A stretch of DNA of 64,000 nt from Deltaproteobacteria bacterium (GTDB lineage: Bacteria > Desulfobacterota > Binatia > HRBIN30 > CADEER01): NCBI GenBank assembly GCA_029262455.1, contig JAJCZJ010000088.1:124001-188000 (forward strand). The letters are read 5' to 3'. The position numbers and the translations under genes are program-made. Shown one piece after another: positions 13,148 to 23,667 of this stretch. The notes beneath the pieces were generated by a model. That model was not told where the DNA came from, ran no database searches, and saw nothing but the letters and a program-made list of their open reading frames with translations. How positions within the stretch are numbered: the first letter of the stretch is position 1; the number at the start of each line of letters is the position of its first letter.

Positions 13148-13507
13148 ATGCTGGCAGACCAGTACCTACCTGTTTTGATCATGCTCCTGGTCGCTGGAGC
13201 GATCGTCACCATCATGGTCAACGCCGGGCGTCTTCTCGGCCCACGCAACAGGACCGAAACCAAGCTCGACACCTTCGAGTGCGGCAACGAATCGAGCGGC
13301 TCCGCATGGGGCAGGTTCTCCGTAAAGTTCTACCTGACTGCGATCCTATTTATCGTCTTCGATGTCGAAGTCGTGTTCATGTACCCATGGGCGCTGGTCT
13401 TTCGCGACCTCGGATGGTTCGCGATGTCGTCGATGTCGATTTTCATCGGCGTCCTGGCACTGGGCCTGGTCTACGAGTGGCGCAAGGGCGCGCTGGAGTG
13501 GGAATGA
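13148..13507 (+). CDS. nuoA: NADH-quinone oxidoreductase subunit A
   Basis: A 119-residue membrane subunit of complex I with three transmembrane helices. Signatures are KLDTFECGNE, with the Cys loop that senses the active/deactive state, RFSVKFYLTAILFIVFDVEVVF, and a C-terminal YEWRKGALEW. It is the first gene of the nuo operon. Its stop overlaps the nuoC start (ATGA at 13504-13507), so no nuoB lies between. Confidence 0.96.
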   Translation: MLADQYLPVLIMLLVAGAIVTIMVNAGRLLGPRNRTETKLDTFECGNESSGSAWGRFSVKFYLTAILFIVFDVEVVFMYPWALVFRDLGWFAMSSMSIFIGVLALGLVYEWRKGALEWE

Positions 13508-14010
13508 CCGCGGAAGAACTCGTTGACAAGGTTCGGTCTGTCGGCGGCAAGCTAGTCGTCGAAGCCACAACGCCACTCGGCGACGCAACCGTCGTCATCC
13601 AGCGCGAAGGCGCGCTAGGCTTCTTTCGCAGCCTTCGGTCGGACACAGACCTCGACTTCGACATGCTGGTCGACCTAACCGCCGTCGACTATCTCGGCCG
13701 CGAACCCCGTTTTGAAGTTGTCTACCACTTCATGTCGCTATCAAAAGGCCATCGTCTGCGGGTGAAACTACCGGTCCCGTCGAGCGATGCTCGCGTGCAC
13801 TCGCTGACCGAGATCTGGAAGTCAGCCAACTGGCTCGAGCGCGAGGCCTTCGACATGATGGGCATTCACTTCGACGGACACCCCGATCTGCGTCGAATCC
13901 TCATGTACGAAGAGTTCGTGGGCTACCCGCTGCGAAAAGACTACCCTGTCGATAAGCGCCAACCCCTGACGGAAGAGCGCGACCCCATTATCAAGGACTG
14001 GAAGTTCTGA
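13504..14010 (+). CDS. nuoC: NADH-quinone oxidoreductase subunit C
   Basis: A 168-residue peripheral-arm subunit near the quinone site. It shows the 30-kDa subunit signature: LVDLTAVDYLGREPRFEVVYH, ANWLEREAFDMMGIHFDGHPDLRRIL and EFVGYPLRKDYPV. The start ATG overlaps the nuoA stop by four bases. The frame is open further upstream inside nuoA, but that extension is out-of-frame nuoA sequence. It ends TGATG, overlapping nuoD by one base. Confidence 0.96.
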   Translation: MTAEELVDKVRSVGGKLVVEATTPLGDATVVIQREGALGFFRSLRSDTDLDFDMLVDLTAVDYLGREPRFEVVYHFMSLSKGHRLRVKLPVPSSDARVHSLTEIWKSANWLEREAFDMMGIHFDGHPDLRRILMYEEFVGYPLRKDYPVDKRQPLTEERDPIIKDWKF

Positions 14011-15281
14011 TGGCCGAAAAAGCTGCCGTCGATGAGAAAGTAATGAGCAGCACCGGCTCCGCCGGTGCTGCGAGCCCAGCGGAGCGCGACAGCGCGACGG
14101 AAGGCATGTCTCCAATTGACGAGATCATGGAGATCCAGATGGGACCCTCCCATCCAGCGACCCACGGAACGATCAAGTTCAATCTAAAGCTCGACGGCGA
14201 AGAAGTCATCGAGTGTGATACCGAGGTCGGTTACTTGCACCGCGGCTTCGAGAAGATGGTCGAGCAAGGGACCTGGACACAGGCAATCCCTTATACAGAT
14301 CGCCTCAACTACGTCTCGCCGCTGATCAACAACGTCGGCTTCTCCATCGCGGTCGAAAGGCTATGTGGCATCGAGGTGCCGCCGCGTTGCCAGTACATTC
14401 GCGTCATCATGAGCGAAGTATCGCGCATCACCGATCATCTCACCTGTCTCGGCATGGCGGCGAGCGAAATCGGCGCGCTGACAGTCGGGTTCTTAACCAA
14501 TGAAGCCCGCGAGCTGCTTTGGGACATCGTCGAGGCCGTCACCGGGGCGCGCGTCACGGTCTCCTACACTCGTCTCGGCGGCGTGACCCGGGACCTACCG
14601 CCAGATTTTCGCCAACGTATCGGCAAAGCCTTCGAGCACCTGCACGCTCTCATCGAAGACTGCGACAAGCTACTCACGCGCAACCGCATCTTCTTTGATC
14701 GAATGTCCGGCATCGGGATCATGTCACGCGAGGATGCGATCAGCTACGGACTCACCGGACCGCTCCTGCGCGCTACCGGCGTATCGTACGACGTCCGCAA
14801 ATCTGATCCCTACTCCGGCTACGAGAATTTCGACTTCGATATTCCGGTCGGGGAAAAGGGCGACAACTACGATCGCTTTCTCGTACGCTTCAACGAGATC
14901 GAGCAAAGCTTGCGCATCATCGACCAAGCCTTGGACACTCTACCCGATGGACCGGTTCGCATCGACGATCCGCGATTCGTCCTGCCGGAGAAACACGACG
15001 TCTACAACAGCATCGAAGGCCTCATGAACCACTTCAAGCTGATCATGGAAGGCGCTAAAGTTCCGGCCGGCGAAGTCTACCAAGCCGTCGAGGGAGCCAA
15101 TGGCGAGCTCGGCTTCTATATCGTCAGCGACGGCAGCGGTCGTCCCTACCGCTGCCGAGTGCGACCACCGTGCTTTCTCGGCATGGCCGCACTCGGAAAG
15201 ATGCTCGAAGGACACATGATCGCAGACATCATCCCCACCTTCGGCATGATCAACATGATCGGCGGCGAGTGCGACCGCTAG
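14010..15281 (+). CDS. nuoD: NADH-quinone oxidoreductase subunit D
   Basis: The 423-residue 49-kDa-type subunit that builds the quinone-reduction pocket with NuoB. Motifs are QMGPSHPATHGTIKF with the quinone-contacting His, EVGYLHRGFEKMVE, PYTDRLNYVSPL and the conserved ending MIADIIPTFGMINMIGGECDR. An N-terminal extension of about 38 residues rich in Ala and Ser precedes the family start near EIMEIQMGPSH. The gene is translationally coupled to nuoC. Confidence 0.97.
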   Translation: MAEKAAVDEKVMSSTGSAGAASPAERDSATEGMSPIDEIMEIQMGPSHPATHGTIKFNLKLDGEEVIECDTEVGYLHRGFEKMVEQGTWTQAIPYTDRLNYVSPLINNVGFSIAVERLCGIEVPPRCQYIRVIMSEVSRITDHLTCLGMAASEIGALTVGFLTNEARELLWDIVEAVTGARVTVSYTRLGGVTRDLPPDFRQRIGKAFEHLHALIEDCDKLLTRNRIFFDRMSGIGIMSREDAISYGLTGPLLRATGVSYDVRKSDPYSGYENFDFDIPVGEKGDNYDRFLVRFNEIEQSLRIIDQALDTLPDGPVRIDDPRFVLPEKHDVYNSIEGLMNHFKLIMEGAKVPAGEVYQAVEGANGELGFYIVSDGSGRPYRCRVRPPCFLGMAALGKMLEGHMIADIIPTFGMINMIGGECDR

Positions 15282-15305
15282 CGGTCGCCAGAAATCCAGG
15301 AACCC

Positions 15306-15785
15306 ATGGCTGTCGAGTTCTCCAAAGAGTCCAAGGCTCACTTCGAAGAGATTCTGACGCGCTACCCTAAGAAGCGCGCGGCCATCATGCCAACGTTGTG
15401 GTTGGCGCAGAAGGACTTCGGGTACCTCAGCCACGAGGTACTCGCGTATGTTGCAGAGCTCATCGAAGAGTCCCCGGCCTTCGTCGCCTCCGTCGCGTCG
15501 TTCTACACGATGTACTACAAGAAGCCGATGGGCCGGCATCACGTCCAGGTCTGCACGAACCTGTCATGTGCCCTTGTCGGATCCGACAACATCGTTAACT
15601 GCATCAAGGAGAAACTCGGCATTGGCCTCGGGGAAACCACTCCGGACGGCAAGTTCTCCCTGGACGAGGTCGAGTGCCTCGCGTCGTGCGGAACGGGCCC
15701 GATGATGCAGATCGACGACGACTACTGGGAAGGCCTGACCACCGAAAAGACTCTCGAGATCCTCGAGAAGCTAGCGGCCGGTTGA
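15306..15785 (+). CDS. nuoE: NADH-quinone oxidoreductase subunit E (2Fe-2S)
   Basis: A 159-residue thioredoxin-fold subunit that carries the N1a-type 2Fe-2S cluster. It has a helical N-terminus (MPTLWLAQKDFGYLS), VASFYTMYYKKP, then the ligand pairs CTNLSC and CLASCG. NuoE normally works with NuoF and NuoG in the NADH-dehydrogenase module; neither is present here. It lies 24 bases after nuoD. Partner subunits must be encoded elsewhere, or the protein serves another dehydrogenase. Confidence 0.94.
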   Translation: MAVEFSKESKAHFEEILTRYPKKRAAIMPTLWLAQKDFGYLSHEVLAYVAELIEESPAFVASVASFYTMYYKKPMGRHHVQVCTNLSCALVGSDNIVNCIKEKLGIGLGETTPDGKFSLDEVECLASCGTGPMMQIDDDYWEGLTTEKTLEILEKLAAG

Positions 15786-15798
15786 ACGCGTCGCGCCC

Positions 15799-16890
15799 AT
15801 GCTGATCGACGTCACCATCATCGTCATCAAGGTCCTCGCGGTCATCGGACTCGTGATGCCGTTGGCCGGAATCCTGGGATGGATCGAGCGCAAGGGTAGC
15901 GCGTTGATCCACGACCGGGTTGGCGCCAACCGAGCCAGCATCCTCGGCTTCAGCGGAGCGGGCTTGGTCAACACGATGGTCGCCGACCCGATCAAGTTCA
16001 TCACCAAGGAAGACATCATTCCGCGCGGCGCCGACCGTCTGCTTCACACGTTGGCTCCGTGTATCAACCTGCTACCGGTACTCATCGCTTTCGCAGTGTT
16101 GCCCTTCGGCGACGTGCTGATCGTAGGTGATCGCGAGATCAACCTGCAGGTCGCTCCGCTCGGAGTCGGCGTCATGTACCTGCTGGCCATGATGTCTCTC
16201 GGGGTCTACGGCGTCGTGCTCGGGGGCTGGGCGTCCAACAACCGCTGGGCACTCCTCGGCGGGATCCGTGGTTCGGCCCAAATGATCTCCTACGAGCTCC
16301 CGATGGGCCTCGCAATCGTGTCGATGATCCTCACGTACAACACGCTCGACCTGCAAGAGATGGCGCGCGCCCAGGGCGAGTTGCTTTGGGGGTGGCTCCC
16401 AGCTTGGGGAATTCTCTACCAGCCGGTGGCTTTCGTGATCTTCCTGATCGCTGGAATCGCGGAGAGCAAGCGCATTCCGTTCGACCTGCCAGAGAGCGAG
16501 TCGGAGCTGATCAGCGGTTACTTCACAGAGTACTCAGGTGTGAAGCACTTGATGTTTTTCATGACCGATTTCGTCGAAGTGATCATCGTCTCAGGCATGA
16601 TCACGACTCTATTTTTCGGCGGCTGGCAGGTCCCCTACCTCAGCGCGACCGGCTTCGAGTTCCCCGGGGATACCGCGATCGCACTCCCACACCTCCTGGT
16701 CGTCGTACTCCAGATCGCGGCCTTTACGATCAAGACGGTATTCTTCTGTTGGTTCCAGATCATGATCCGCTGGACCGTTCCCCGCTTTCGTTACGACCAA
16801 CTAATGCAACTCGGGTGGCTGGGGCTTTTGCCGCTCGGTTTCGTCAATATCATAGCGACCGCATTGATGATCCTGGCCACACAAGACTGA
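15799..16890 (+). CDS. nuoH: NADH-quinone oxidoreductase subunit H
   Basis: A 363-residue polytopic membrane subunit joining the quinone cavity to the proton channels. It has the family signatures GWIERKGSALIHDRVGANRA, KFITKEDIIP, GSAQMISYELPMGLA and ESKRIPFDLPESESELISGY (Glu-rich quinone-entry loop). It lies 13 bases after nuoE. The expected nuoI gene (two 4Fe-4S clusters) does not follow. Confidence 0.96.
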   Translation: MLIDVTIIVIKVLAVIGLVMPLAGILGWIERKGSALIHDRVGANRASILGFSGAGLVNTMVADPIKFITKEDIIPRGADRLLHTLAPCINLLPVLIAFAVLPFGDVLIVGDREINLQVAPLGVGVMYLLAMMSLGVYGVVLGGWASNNRWALLGGIRGSAQMISYELPMGLAIVSMILTYNTLDLQEMARAQGELLWGWLPAWGILYQPVAFVIFLIAGIAESKRIPFDLPESESELISGYFTEYSGVKHLMFFMTDFVEVIIVSGMITTLFFGGWQVPYLSATGFEFPGDTAIALPHLLVVVLQIAAFTIKTVFFCWFQIMIRWTVPRFRYDQLMQLGWLGLLPLGFVNIIATALMILATQD

Positions 16891-16892
16891 AC

Positions 16893-16964
16893 ATGAGCTC
16901 GACGAACCTATCCACAGATTCGCGACGCTGCGACCAAGCCTGTGCAGGCGGAAACATTTCCTGA
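16893..16964 (+). CDS. Possible 23-residue leader peptide before nuoJ
   Basis: A short frame starts two bases after the nuoH stop and ends at a TGA overlapping the nuoJ ATG (TGATG). The product [20 protein letters not shown] (plus NIS) has no known match and carries no nuoI-like CxxCxxC motif. It could couple translation from nuoH to nuoJ or be chance. Confidence 0.25.
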
Positions 16965-17473
16965 TGTCCCCCTACGTATTCTTTCCGTTGGCAGCCACGA
17001 TCATCGCGTTCGCCCTGGGCGTGGTCCTCAATCGCCATCCAATTCGCAGCGCGCTCTGTCTCGCCGTCACTCTGTTTCTGTTGGCAGTCGTGTTTGTCTT
17101 CCTCGACGCTCACCTCGTCGCCGCACTGCAAATCATCGTGTACGCGGGTGCGATTCTGGTCCTCTTCTTGTTCGTCATCATGCTGCTCAATCTAGAAGCC
17201 GACGTCCCCCTCAAACGAAGACGCAACATGACGCTCGCCGCATCCACCGTCGGAGTGATCTTTGCGGCGGCAACCTTGCGCCCGCTCTTCTTTGGCGCGG
17301 GCGAACTTCCGGGAATTGGCCTAGAGGCACCGGTCGATGCCGCGTTTGGCAGTGCCGAAGCAATCGGCCACCGATTGTTCACGCACTTCGTTCTTCCCTT
17401 CGAAATCACATCCGTCCTGCTCCTCGTAGCAGTCCTCGGCGCCGTCGTGTTGGCGAAGAAGAGGATGGGGTAG
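16964..17473 (+). CDS. nuoJ: NADH-quinone oxidoreductase subunit J
   Basis: A 169-residue membrane subunit with five predicted helices. The conserved third helix, [19 protein letters not shown], contains the pi-bulge region that couples the quinone site to proton pumping. Start is the ATG at 16964, in a TGATG overlap. The next gene begins after two bases. Confidence 0.94.
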
Positions 17474-17475
17474 GC

Positions 17476-17778
17476 ATGGTACCCGCTACCTACTTCATCG
17501 CCCTCAGTGTCATCCTCTTCGTAATCGGAGCTGTCGGCTTTTTAGTTCGTCGCAATCTGATCGTCATGTTCATGTCGATCGAATTGATGCTCAACGCCGC
17601 TAATCTGGCGTTCGTTACCTTCGCCCGCCAACAACTAAACCTCGACGGCCAAGTGATCGTCTTCTTCGTCATGACCGTCGCCGCCGCAGAGGTCGCGGTC
17701 GGCCTGGCGATCATCATCGCCTTGTTCCGCCACCGCGAGACACTGAACGCCGACGAAGTGCGGATGCTCCGCTGGTAG
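17476..17778 (+). CDS. nuoK: NADH-quinone oxidoreductase subunit K
   Basis: A 100-residue subunit with three membrane helices. [16 protein letters not shown] and [19 protein letters not shown] carry the two conserved Glu residues of the proton path. The ATG at 17476 was chosen because it gives the normal family length; the frame is open upstream only as nuoJ antiphase sequence. Confidence 0.95.
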
Positions 17779-17793
17779 AAGCCAACTGAACCT

Positions 17794-19239
17794 ATGATTC
17801 CCGAGATATCCTGGACAATCCTGCTGCCCACCCTATTGGTTACCGGCACCGGGTTCGCCGTACTGCTCGCCGACCTGGCCACGACCGGCCCCGAAAAGGA
17901 CGGGCTCGGCTGGATCGGCATCGTCGGTCTCGTTGTCACCGCAATCGCGTCGGCTGCACTTTGGAATACTCAGGCGTCCGGCTTTGACGGCACCATCGTA
18001 CTCGACCGCTATGCTCTCTTCTTCAACGTAGTGTTCTGCCTAGCCGCTGCCCTGACTCTCCTGATGTCGATGGACTACCTCGGCACAATCGGTCTGCGCA
18101 GTGGTGAGTACTACGCGATCGTGCTGTTTGCGACGGCGGGGATGTTCCTGATGGCCGCGGCGAACGATCTCATCGTGTTGTTTCTCGGACTCGAGACGAT
18201 GTCGATTGCCGCCTACGTTCTCGCCGGCATTTGGCGCCCGGACTTGCGATCCAGCGAGGCGGCGATGAAGTACTTCCTTCTCGGCGCCTTCGCGACCGGA
18301 TTTCTTCTCTTTGGGATCGCCATGCTGTACGGCGCCTTCGGCACGACCACCCTGACGACCATCACCGCCGAGATCGGACCCAGCGCAGACCTTCAGCGAA
18401 CCCTGGCATTTGGCGGGGTGGCGCTACTGATCGCCGGTTTCGGCTTCAAGATTGCCGCCGTTCCATTCCATGCCTGGGCTCCAGACGTCTACGAGGGTTC
18501 GCCGACATCGGTCACCGCATTCATGGCGGCCGGGGTCAAAGCCGCGGCATTCGCCGCGTTCGTGCGAATCTTCATGCACACGTTCGCAGAGCTGGCGGTA
18601 GACTGGAGACCGGTTCTCGCGCTTCTTGCCGTCGTGACCATGACCGTCGGCAACCTGGCTGCGCTGAAACAAACCAACATCAAACGAATGCTCGCCTATT
18701 CGAGCATCGCCCATGCCGGCTACCTGCTGGTCGGGATGGTCGCAGCGGACAGCTTGGGCGGGGCTGCGGTTCTCTACTACTTGCTCGCATACGGCCTCAT
18801 GAACACCGGCGCATTCGCCGTCGTCATTGCTCTCGGCAAGCGCGGAGAGCCAAACGAGTCACTCGATGACTACGACAGTGTCGGCCTGCGTCATCCTGCG
18901 CTCGGCCTCTGCATGACGGTCTTCATGCTGTCGCTCGCCGGAATCCCGGCGCTAGCGGGCTTCACCGGGAAGTTTTACCTGTTCAGCGCGGCGGTCGGTC
19001 AGGGGTACGCCTGGCTCGCAATCATCGGAGTGCTCAACAGTGTCGTGTCGATGTACTACTACGGCGGTGTCCTGATGCGGATGTTCATGGCCGAAGACGG
19101 CAAGGACGTCCAAGGAACAACCCACCGCCCTTACCTGACGGCGACGCTAATCGTAACTACAGTAGGGACTGTCGCTCTCGGGATTTTCCCGAGCTGGGCG
19201 TTCGAGCTAGCCCTCGGCGCGTTCCAATCGCTGGGATAG
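17794..19239 (+). CDS. nuoN: NADH-quinone oxidoreductase subunit N
   Basis: A 481-residue antiporter-like proton pump subunit with about 14 helices. Hallmarks are LVLFLGLETMSIAAYVLAG with the TM5 Glu, AMKYFLLGAFATGFLLFG with the TM7 Lys, FHAWAPDVYEGSPTSVTAFMA and KQTNIKRMLAYSSIAHAGYLL. It is the last gene of the operon. The related nuoL and nuoM, normally between nuoK and nuoN, are absent, so this is the only pump subunit in the cluster. Confidence 0.96.
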   Translation: MIPEISWTILLPTLLVTGTGFAVLLADLATTGPEKDGLGWIGIVGLVVTAIASAALWNTQASGFDGTIVLDRYALFFNVVFCLAAALTLLMSMDYLGTIGLRSGEYYAIVLFATAGMFLMAAANDLIVLFLGLETMSIAAYVLAGIWRPDLRSSEAAMKYFLLGAFATGFLLFGIAMLYGAFGTTTLTTITAEIGPSADLQRTLAFGGVALLIAGFGFKIAAVPFHAWAPDVYEGSPTSVTAFMAAGVKAAAFAAFVRIFMHTFAELAVDWRPVLALLAVVTMTVGNLAALKQTNIKRMLAYSSIAHAGYLLVGMVAADSLGGAAVLYYLLAYGLMNTGAFAVVIALGKRGEPNESLDDYDSVGLRHPALGLCMTVFMLSLAGIPALAGFTGKFYLFSAAVGQGYAWLAIIGVLNSVVSMYYYGGVLMRMFMAEDGKDVQGTTHRPYLTATLIVTTVGTVALGIFPSWAFELALGAFQSLG

Positions 19240-21891: not shown

Positions 21892-23667
21892 TTACACCCG
21901 TGGACAGCCACTCAGCGCGCTGCGAACCGCTGCCACCAACTCGTTGATCGCAATCAGGCCGTCTCCACTCCGATCAGCGGCAAGGCAGGCGTCCGTCGGC
22001 CCTCGGGTGAGTGAGATCTGCACGGCAGTCACCAGTTCGTTAATTCCGACGACACAGTTTCCATCGCAGTCACCCGCACACCTACCCCCACAAACCGACA
22101 CCTGAGTCTCCGTCGGCGTCGCCGAGGGCGGAACCGGAGTGAGTGTCGCCGTCGCACTTGGCGGTACGTCAGTTGGCGAGAACGTTGCCGTCGAGGTGGC
22201 CGTCGTCGTCGGTGTCGACGTCGGAGTAGCCGTCGGCGTGACCGTCACCTGGCCCCCGCAGGGCACCAACTGAGGATCGACGATCAGCGTTAGATCCGGA
22301 TCGGCGGTACCCGCGATGATCGGGACAATTCCGTTCGGAACGACAACCTCGTTGGCCGCTTCGGCCTTCAGTGTTCCCGCAATCGAGACAGATCCGCGCG
22401 CAACCAGGCGATTCTTGGCACCCGCACCAGCCGACTCCAATCGAGCACTTCGCCCTAACGCCATCGAGCAGGCGCTGAGATCGATGTCCCCCAAGCTCCC
22501 GCCTCGCCCGCCGCCAACCGACGTTTCACCGGCAAGATAGGTCCCGTCGGATTGAATGGCTCCGCCCGCGACGACCTTAATCGAGCCCACCGGTCCGGTC
22601 GCGAGAAGATTACAAGCGCTCGTTACAAGTTGATCTCCGCCGCTTACAACCGTCAGATCGCCACCAAAATCGTCGGCGCTCACATCGATCACACCGCTGC
22701 ACACGAAGCGTCGGCTCACTTCGATCGAGATCGACCCCCCACAACCATCGCCACTGGTTCCACCGAAGTTGACCTCGCCACCAACAGATACGTCACCCGC
22801 AGCGATGCTGGCATCGCCGCCGCAGCAATCCCCCGCACGGGCCCGGAAGTCGATGTCGCCCGCGATCAAGAGGTTTCCCTCGATGTCGAGATCAAGGAGA
22901 CCGCCATCCCCGCAATCATCACCAGCCGTCGCCGAGCCCCGGCCGCGGATACGCCCTGTCAATTCCACATCCGCGCCGCTGGCAATTTCAACCGAACCGG
23001 CGTCGCTCAACTCGCCATTCCCATCGACCACGGCGGCACCAAGTACGACCCGGCCTTCGGTCAGCACGGACAGGCTGCCGCCACCAAACTCGCCGCCCGA
23101 GAGGTCAATCGAACCTCGCAACAAGACGTCGCCCACCGCCGAAACATCAAGCGACCCGCCCTCTCCGAGTGTTCCACTGGTCGCCTGGACTTCGCCAGTC
23201 ACTGAGACATCGCTCGCGCTCGAGATCACGATCACGCCGCCATCCGCGTCGGGGTCGGAACCGTTCAAGACCAGCGCACCTCGGACCGATACGAACTCGC
23301 CGATCAGAGTCAGGCTCGCCCCGTCCGCCACCATCCGGATCACACCAGACTCCCGCCGCCCATCGAGTACCAGGTCCCCCGTTGCATTGAGCACCATCGA
23401 CTCAAGCCCGCGCAACTGCCCGGATCCGCGAATCTCCAGGTTCTGCGCATCGAGCCGCAGGCTCGCATCACCGACGTCGACCACCGCCTCGATGACAACG
23501 TCGCGATCACCAAAGTCGAGACCAAGATCACCCTGACCCGCGAGATTAGCGTTTGCCGTGATGACGCAGGGGTCGCCCGCGCAAAGGTCGTCCGGAGTCA
23601 CCCCGCCCAGTACAGGAGCTGCCGTCAACAATACCGACAGCACACATCCCGGTCTCAGTGCACTCAT
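21892..23667 (-). CDS. Secreted beta-solenoid protein with Thr/Pro linker and dockerin-like EF-hand tail
   Basis: A 591-residue exported protein with an N-terminal signal peptide (about residues 1-22) and many short beta-strand repeats rich in Gly, Asp, Ser and Val over about 40-455 (for example GSLDVSAVGDVLLRGSIDLSGG). A low-complexity Thr/Pro/Ser linker spans about 460-520. The C-terminus has two EF-hand-like units, GDCDGNCVVGINELVTAV and AADRSGDGLIAINELVAAV, flanked by Cys. The tail is very common in Candidatus Binatia exoproteins (recalled) and resembles dockerin/type I EF-hand anchors. Function is unknown: adhesin, surface layer or enzyme scaffold. GAGGT lies nine bases before the ATG. 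Confidence 0.82.
   Translation of the reverse strand: MSALRPGCVLSVLLTAAPVLGGVTPDDLCAGDPCVITANANLAGQGDLGLDFGDRDVVIEAVVDVGDASLRLDAQNLEIRGSGQLRGLESMVLNATGDLVLDGRRESGVIRMVADGASLTLIGEFVSVRGALVLNGSDPDADGGVIVISSASDVSVTGEVQATSGTLGEGGSLDVSAVGDVLLRGSIDLSGGEFGGGSLSVLTEGRVVLGAAVVDGNGELSDAGSVEIASGADVELTGRIRGRGSATAGDDCGDGGLLDLDIEGNLLIAGDIDFRARAGDCCGGDASIAAGDVSVGGEVNFGGTSGDGCGGSISIEVSRRFVCSGVIDVSADDFGGDLTVVSGGDQLVTSACNLLATGPVGSIKVVAGGAIQSDGTYLAGETSVGGGRGGSLGDIDLSACSMALGRSARLESAGAGAKNRLVARGSVSIAGTLKAEAANEVVVPNGIVPIIAGTADPDLTLIVDPQLVPCGGQVTVTPTATPTSTPTTTATSTATFSPTDVPPSATATLTPVPPSATPTETQVSVCGGRCAGDCDGNCVVGINELVTAVQISLTRGPTDACLAADRSGDGLIAINELVAAVRSALSGCPRV

Follow-up and report, generated by a model that had tools for sequence, protein, structure and literature searches.

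A 64-kb window (C88, positions 124,001-188,000) in a genome of the candidate group Ca. Binatia carries a compact cluster of eight complex I genes, from which nuoB, nuoF, nuoG, nuoI, nuoL and nuoM are missing. This raises the question whether the six genes were lost, were moved, or are not needed by an enzyme of unusual assembly. All six are kept in the genome and none is lost. With a probability of roughly 0.8, a complete, proton-pumping NADH:quinone oxidoreductase of 14 subunits is encoded at four loci, of which the window cluster supplies the core; the NuoL-NuoM pair of this enzyme is probably xenologous. The codes C24, C55, C80, C86, C88 and C99 denote contigs of the window genome (G000, 7.34 Mb). 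The features of the cluster, in window coordinates, are as follows.

13148..13507, + strand: nuoA; NuoA by hmmscan (2.9e-35), under the curated cut-off
13504..14010, + strand: nuoC; TIGR01961 (1.1e-42), over the cut-off; directly 3' of nuoA with no nuoB between
14010..15281, + strand: nuoD; TIGR01962 (4.7e-148), over the cut-off
15306..15785, + strand: nuoE; TIGR01958 (4.6e-51), over the cut-off, with the cysteine pattern; followed by nuoH, so that nuoF and nuoG are absent
15799..16890, + strand: nuoH; NuoH models down to 9.8e-89, under the curated cut-off; followed by nuoJ, so that nuoI is absent
16964..17473, + strand: nuoJ; NuoJ models down to 1.5e-35, under the curated cut-off
17470..17778, + strand: nuoK; NF004320 (8.3e-37), over the cut-off
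17779..17793, no strand: K-N junction of 15 bp, the site of nuoL-nuoM in 15 ACDEHJKLMN clusters of relatives
17794..19239, + strand: nuoN; TIGR01770 (4.4e-131), over the cut-off

Each of the eight proteins aligns with its own Nuo family over most of its length (hmmscan), and the sequence-only reading of eight intact genes in canonical order was confirmed for all of them. The curated NCBIfam cut-off is passed by C, D, E, K and N; the values for A (121 bits, cut-off 155), H (298, cut-off 305) and J (123, cut-off 192) are lower, and none of the three has a better match to anything else. Adjacent genes overlap by 4 bp (A/C and J/K) or 1 bp (C/D), or are separated by 24 (D-E), 13 (E-H), 73 (H-J) and 15 bp (K-N); the spacing described earlier as overlaps or gaps of 1 to 73 bases thus runs, as measured, from a 4-bp overlap to a 73-bp gap. 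Using tblastn with 25 reference subunits (14 split-type and 11 compact-type; hits covering more than 40% of the query), no complex I gene beyond these eight was found in the 64 kb, as the earlier reading had said. An artefact of contig ends or assembly gaps was considered and rejected: the window contains no undetermined base (N), at the gene overlaps or anywhere else, the cluster (C88, 137,148-143,239) is far from the ends of its 623,648-bp contig, the other loci are also situated inside contigs, with nuoI closest to an end (5.6 kb, on C80), and relatives show the same arrangement.

The six genes were found in the whole genome outside any other complex I operon, with one locus on each of three further contigs. 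B, F and G stand together on C55 (69.5-72.9 kb of 86 kb), L and M on C24 (122.8-126.3 kb of 161.6 kb), and nuoI is on C80 (13.0-13.6 kb of 19.2 kb). The proposal that they had been moved to a second locus therefore holds in that all six lie elsewhere, and fails in their number of sites; none of them lies nearby on C88. In searches of the whole genome, NuoB (PF01058) occurs in two copies only, on C55 and C86. NuoI (TIGR01971) has two strong matches (C80 and C86) out of 32 up to E 10, the rest being weak 4Fe-4S matches, and NuoF has a single match at E <= 1e-40, on C55. NuoG was identified solely by its position beside nuoF. The antiporter family PF00361 gives 11 matches, namely N (C88), L and M (C24), L-M-N (C86), three Mrp-like proteins (C55) and two on C99. 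The second copies on C86 belong to a compact operon, A-B-C-D-H-I-J-K-L-M-N (L014 6593-17083), which has 11 subunits and lacks E, F and G; it is therefore not the duplicate full operon that had been considered.

Several other genes lie close to these loci. Mrp-like multisubunit cation/proton antiporter genes are located about 9 kb from B-F-G on C55 (L015 9155-14426); as hidden NuoL or NuoM they were rejected, since models of cation antiporter subunit D match them best (with one of the three proteins over the cut-off). The detached nuoI on C80 is followed by a short open reading frame, a rhodanese/MoeB-like gene and a ThiS-like gene (L138 9543-11926; names read from the sequence). On C99 (L017 4213-9936), a protein of 985 amino acids without NCBIfam match at E <= 1e-20 adjoins the two PF00361 matches, a set which we take to resemble DabA/DabB inorganic carbon pumps.

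The dispersed proteins appear complete. For B, F, L and M, one or more models of NuoB, NuoF, NuoL or NuoM, respectively, give a score over the cut-off, while NuoI (99.6 bits, cut-off 113.05) and NuoG (465.6, cut-off 470.05) fall short and still have NuoI and NuoG as best matches. In total, nine of the 14 proteins (B, C, D, E, F, K, L, M and N) are over a curated cut-off. The low scores of A, H, J, G and I are read as probable divergence, the expected subunit still being the best match. A pattern search found the cysteine ligand patterns expected for iron-sulphur (Fe-S) clusters in B, E, F, G and I. In alignments with the best solved chains (8qby L and M), the charged residues of the motifs FFSKD (L) and FVGEFL (M) coincide with identical ones. 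In our reading these are probably equivalent to the distal charged residues K399/D400 of E. coli NuoL and E407 of NuoM (PMC9271201). With usual ligand patterns in the dispersed B, F, G and I and full-length family members for L and M, the unusual assembly suggested earlier finds no support. All 14 core subunits of complex I are encoded in the genome, albeit at four loci and not in a single nuoA-N operon; nor is the set an 11-subunit complex without E, F and G, since nuoE is in the window cluster and F and G are on C55.

Whether the dispersed B, F and I belong with C, D and E of the window was assessed among 78 relatives. Window-type D (at least 60% identity) is present in 45 of them. Window-type I accompanies it in 42 of these and window-type B in 43, compared to none for either subunit in the 33 genomes without window-type D (Fisher p of 6.5e-19 for I and 5.5e-20 for B, with relatives treated as independent). 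I was missed in G041, G060 and G062 and B in G069 and G074; four of these genomes are 80-89% complete and G041 is 99% complete. The counts for I and B depend on the E-value limits of the searches. The identity limits (D 60, I 60, B 75%) were picked after the lists had been seen. They fall into wide gaps for I (61 versus 46%) and B (76 versus 68%) and a narrow one for D (60 versus 58%), and the limit for D agrees with the C+D+E tree for the rows which that tree holds. The B+F+I tree (27 rows) has the same main split as the C+D+E tree (39 rows): in both, f1, f2 and f3 are separated from the genomes with a BGICDEF cluster (100/100), f1 being the family of the window genome and represented in the B+F+I tree by G000 and G004. 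By these comparisons, the dispersed B, F and I have the same history as C, D and E.

The L-M pair has a different one. The families f1 to f4, which form the order of the window genome, are joined in the tree of the membrane base (H+K+N, 36 rows; 96/99), whereas in the L+M tree (40 rows) f1, G012 and f9 form a clade (100/100). Holding the order together for L-M was rejected by the approximately unbiased (AU) test (p-AU 1e-70), and so was holding f1 with f9 for H-K-N (p-AU 1e-7). L alone and M alone each recover the identical clade of 11 rows, with a value of 100 in the Shimodaira-Hasegawa-like approximate likelihood ratio test (SH-aLRT). H alone recovers the order (96), and f1 is not joined with f9 in the tree of N, J or D; D cannot recover the order because f4 carries the other peripheral arm. 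The tree rows are a part of the 78 relatives. Hits of tblastn with query coverage up to 60% were dropped, each tree of joined subunits includes only genomes with all of them (G003, G012, G013, G015 and G029 are among those absent from H+K+N), and f14 is absent from the L+M, H+K+N and single-gene trees. An M at E <= 1e-199 was found in 17 of the 140 genomes of the class that are at least 80% complete, comprising five of f1, G012, G008 of f3 and ten of f9, a count that depends on this E-value limit; the L-M pair of G008 groups with f3 in the L+M tree. The trees suggest that L-M was not simply relocated, since in f1 and G012 the pair falls with f9 and not with the genomes' own order. That the pair had moved is thus probably wrong for L and M, for which the trees point to a foreign pair replacing a native one that was lost. 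The window operon has, by the same trees, lost its own L-M, and the sole NuoL-NuoM pair left besides that of the compact operon is f9-like.

The flanks of the L-M pair were compared as well. G000 shares neighbours with G001 and G002, and no convincing shared neighbour was found with G004 or G012. A small c-type cytochrome gene (CxxCH, read from the sequence) is located near L-M in G004 and G012, on different sides. In a scan for donors, 17 of 80 named NuoD loci (NuoD up to 60% identical) include a split-type M, which is 35-57% identical to that of the window genome. This sample was picked by NuoD and many of its loci end before M, so there may be donors outside Binatia.

Taken together, the products of ACDEHJKN, B-F-G, I and L-M would be made together and assemble into one enzyme, in which electrons would pass from NADH via F, E and G to I and B and then to quinone at D/H, and protons would be pumped through H, N, M and L. 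L-M would probably represent a xenologous cassette related to that of f9, situated at a locus of its own after clean loss of the native pair from the operon. The enzyme would then be a hybrid of native proximal and foreign distal pumps.

The alternative to be taken most seriously, though unlikely, is that the discordance of L-M reflects two ancient paralogous pairs and differential loss, with no transfer between families. It gains from the nesting of f9 inside the detached pairs, so that the tree shows no simple gift from f9 to f1 and an L-M transfer may have run in either direction. It would, however, require many reciprocal losses; the 16 genomes with an f1/f9-like M hold no other M at E <= 1e-90 save one of 43-46% identity (compact type), and in all five f9 genomes read the pair lies inside an A-H-J-K-L-M-N cluster. 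Besides this nesting, several points weigh against a hybrid enzyme at four loci as proposed here. The groups for the AU tests were named after the trees had been seen, which weakens these tests, and the taxonomy consists of the group codes of the tool and not of a species tree made for this analysis. N recovers the order only with the compact outgroup included (77), and J not at all. The five f1 L-M pairs do not form one clade (p-AU 0.029 if held together), which allows for more than one transfer. The independence of relatives assumed in the Fisher tests and the narrow gap at the limit for D are further such points, as are the five proteins (A, H, J, I and G) that reach no curated model's cut-off. 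Finally, nuoB lies near the compact operon in four f8 genomes, where it may be shared between the complexes.

Gene order was compared in 39 relatives with DNA from the NuoD neighbourhood, after removal of tblastn rows with query coverage up to 40% (35% for the 80 named loci). The order ACDEHJKN is found in four of them (G001, G002 and G004, plus G003, which reaches the contig end after H), ACDEHJKLMN in 15 and ACDEFGHJKLMN in three (two visible to M only). Two (G028 and G061) have ACD alone with E-H-J-K-L-M-N elsewhere, 12 have BGICDEF, and three have the canonical A-B-C-D-E-F-G-H-I-J-K-L(-M), the stretch ending after L or M. The peripheral-arm type of the window is thus present in 24 of the 39, with B and I outside the cluster in all 24 and F-G outside in 21. 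Clusters without L-M, among those read, are confined to f1 and to a single genome from a different family, G012, where K and N of an A-H-J-K-N cluster are 22 bp apart and L-M is detached. Genomes of the BGICDEF type hold a separate membrane cluster: A-H-J-K-L-M-N is whole in ten (G007, G010, G014, G019, G025, G026, G032, G033, G039 and G059) and in two contig pieces in G013, and H-J-K-L-M-N without A is found in three (G020, at a contig end, G048 and G055); the BGICDEF cluster itself was inferred from match positions in G013, G014, G032 and G048.

The detached genes differ in their distances. I and B-F-G are 5-7 kb apart in five genomes (G017, G021, G030, G063 and G068) and on different contigs or far apart in the others. 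In G031, a single contig, the cluster is at 2.30 Mb, I at 4.52 Mb, F-G at 0.98 Mb and B at 0.88 Mb, adjoining the compact operon. All five f1 genomes have the four gene sets on four different contigs; in G004 (10 contigs) these are large, with no set closer than 59 kb to a contig end. Among the 80 named NuoD loci, A is followed by C without B in 17 (L058-L073 and L136; NuoD 68-86% identical to that of the window), four of which carry Binatia or Binataceae in their title. All other named loci with both A and C (NuoD up to 60%) also hold B. Gene order is reportedly not essential for the assembly of E. coli complex I (Oppermann et al., 2022, among the references of PMC12361115).

A second NuoD of approximately 40-46% identity occurs in 55 of the 78 relatives, the compact operon having been read whole only in G000 and G031. 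In G031, the split-complex NuoB is encoded just upstream of this operon (L223 15326-15814), apart from F-G and I. By match positions, the same holds for G024, G038 and G058, i.e. for four of nine f8 genomes in total. It is improbable that the compact operon, and not the dispersed loci, supplies B, I, L and M to the window cluster. C86 does encode all four, and the placement of window-type B near the compact operon in the f8 genomes would fit; the identity between C86 and split-type subunits is, however, just 35-50%, the dispersed B, F and I agree in their tree with C, D and E, and G004 has the whole dispersed set, a second D, B, I or M of the compact type not being found there at the thresholds applied. 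Still less probable is a reduced complex in which B, I, F, G, L and M are dispensable. The tight packing of the eight genes and the conservation of their order in the family would fit, but this idea is largely refuted by the presence of all six genes elsewhere in the genome. Window-type B and I are moreover found only in genomes with window-type D, a NuoD without NuoB lacks the N2 cluster, and nuoE is retained, for which we know of no use without NuoF. An artefact of binning, with foreign contigs or misassembly, is hardly credible: the 127 contigs probably are a metagenome bin and C80 has just 19.2 kb, but completeness is 100% and contamination 1.63%, the same four-way dispersal recurs in G001, G002, G003 and G004, and the dispersed genes are closest to those of their own genus (identity of 79-95% for B, F, I, L and M and of 68-69% for G).

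The peripheral arm, too, crosses families. For C-D-E, f1-f4 as one clade was rejected (p-AU 7e-82), as was family f12 (p-AU 4e-5), since the BGICDEF type is found in f4 and in a part of f12. This distribution would fit an exchange as well as two ancient types with differential loss. Judged from the trees, complex I of Binatia looks modular, the L-M pair and perhaps the peripheral arm having been exchanged. It appears reasonably likely that these are plug-in modules, with L-M foreign in f1 and G012 (the native pair lost from the operon), two arm types crossing families and a vertically inherited membrane base, the window organism possessing a natural hybrid complex I.

The comparisons with published systems draw on excerpts of the papers cited. 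Split complex I and the dispersal of its genes alone are already known: split and single-cluster gene sets are mixed in the majority of complex I clades (PMC12361115), the excerpts of that text mentioning neither Binatia nor a foreign L-M pair. Compared to canonical 14-subunit NDH-1 (nuoA-N), the set described here has all 14 subunit types, the Fe-S ligand patterns and full-length antiporter subunits, and differs by its four loci and by a distal pump pair probably of another lineage. The second complex I of Chloroflexus aurantiacus is a loosely arranged set lacking nuoG and with nuoM doubled (PMC3150298), whereas each split-type subunit was found once here (NuoG by position only). An 11-subunit complex I-like enzyme without NuoEFG (PMC11238625) has the same make-up as the C86 operon, in contrast to the window cluster, which has nuoE and belongs to a set with F and G. 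A survey of Binatota reports complex I in all genomes, gene order not being mentioned in the excerpts of that text (PMC8262859). One of the two complex I isozymes of R. sphaeroides was termed horizontally acquired (PMC4859585). A Yarrowia complex without homologs of NuoL and NuoM is still formed and retains pumping, with the stoichiometry lowered to 1 (cited in PMC9271201), which makes L-M a plausible unit of exchange. No publication on replacement of the L-M pair alone was found among the matches listed (titles and abstract starts), which cover subscription journals thinly.

Outside the complex I genes, a large, secreted-looking protein with a C-terminal, dockerin-like GDCDGN stretch, as read from the sequence, is encoded in the window at 21892-23667 (- strand). 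A similar GDCD motif begins proteins at L014 1919-3190 and L016 8001-9089.

An operon-based annotation would wrongly score complex I of this genome as incomplete. The discordant L-M pair is the part that merits the attention of specialists. If L-M and the arm have indeed been exchanged between lineages, the Binatia would offer natural experiments on which interfaces of complex I tolerate foreign partners, and on the way in which the boundary between N and M is bridged in the coupling of proton pumping.

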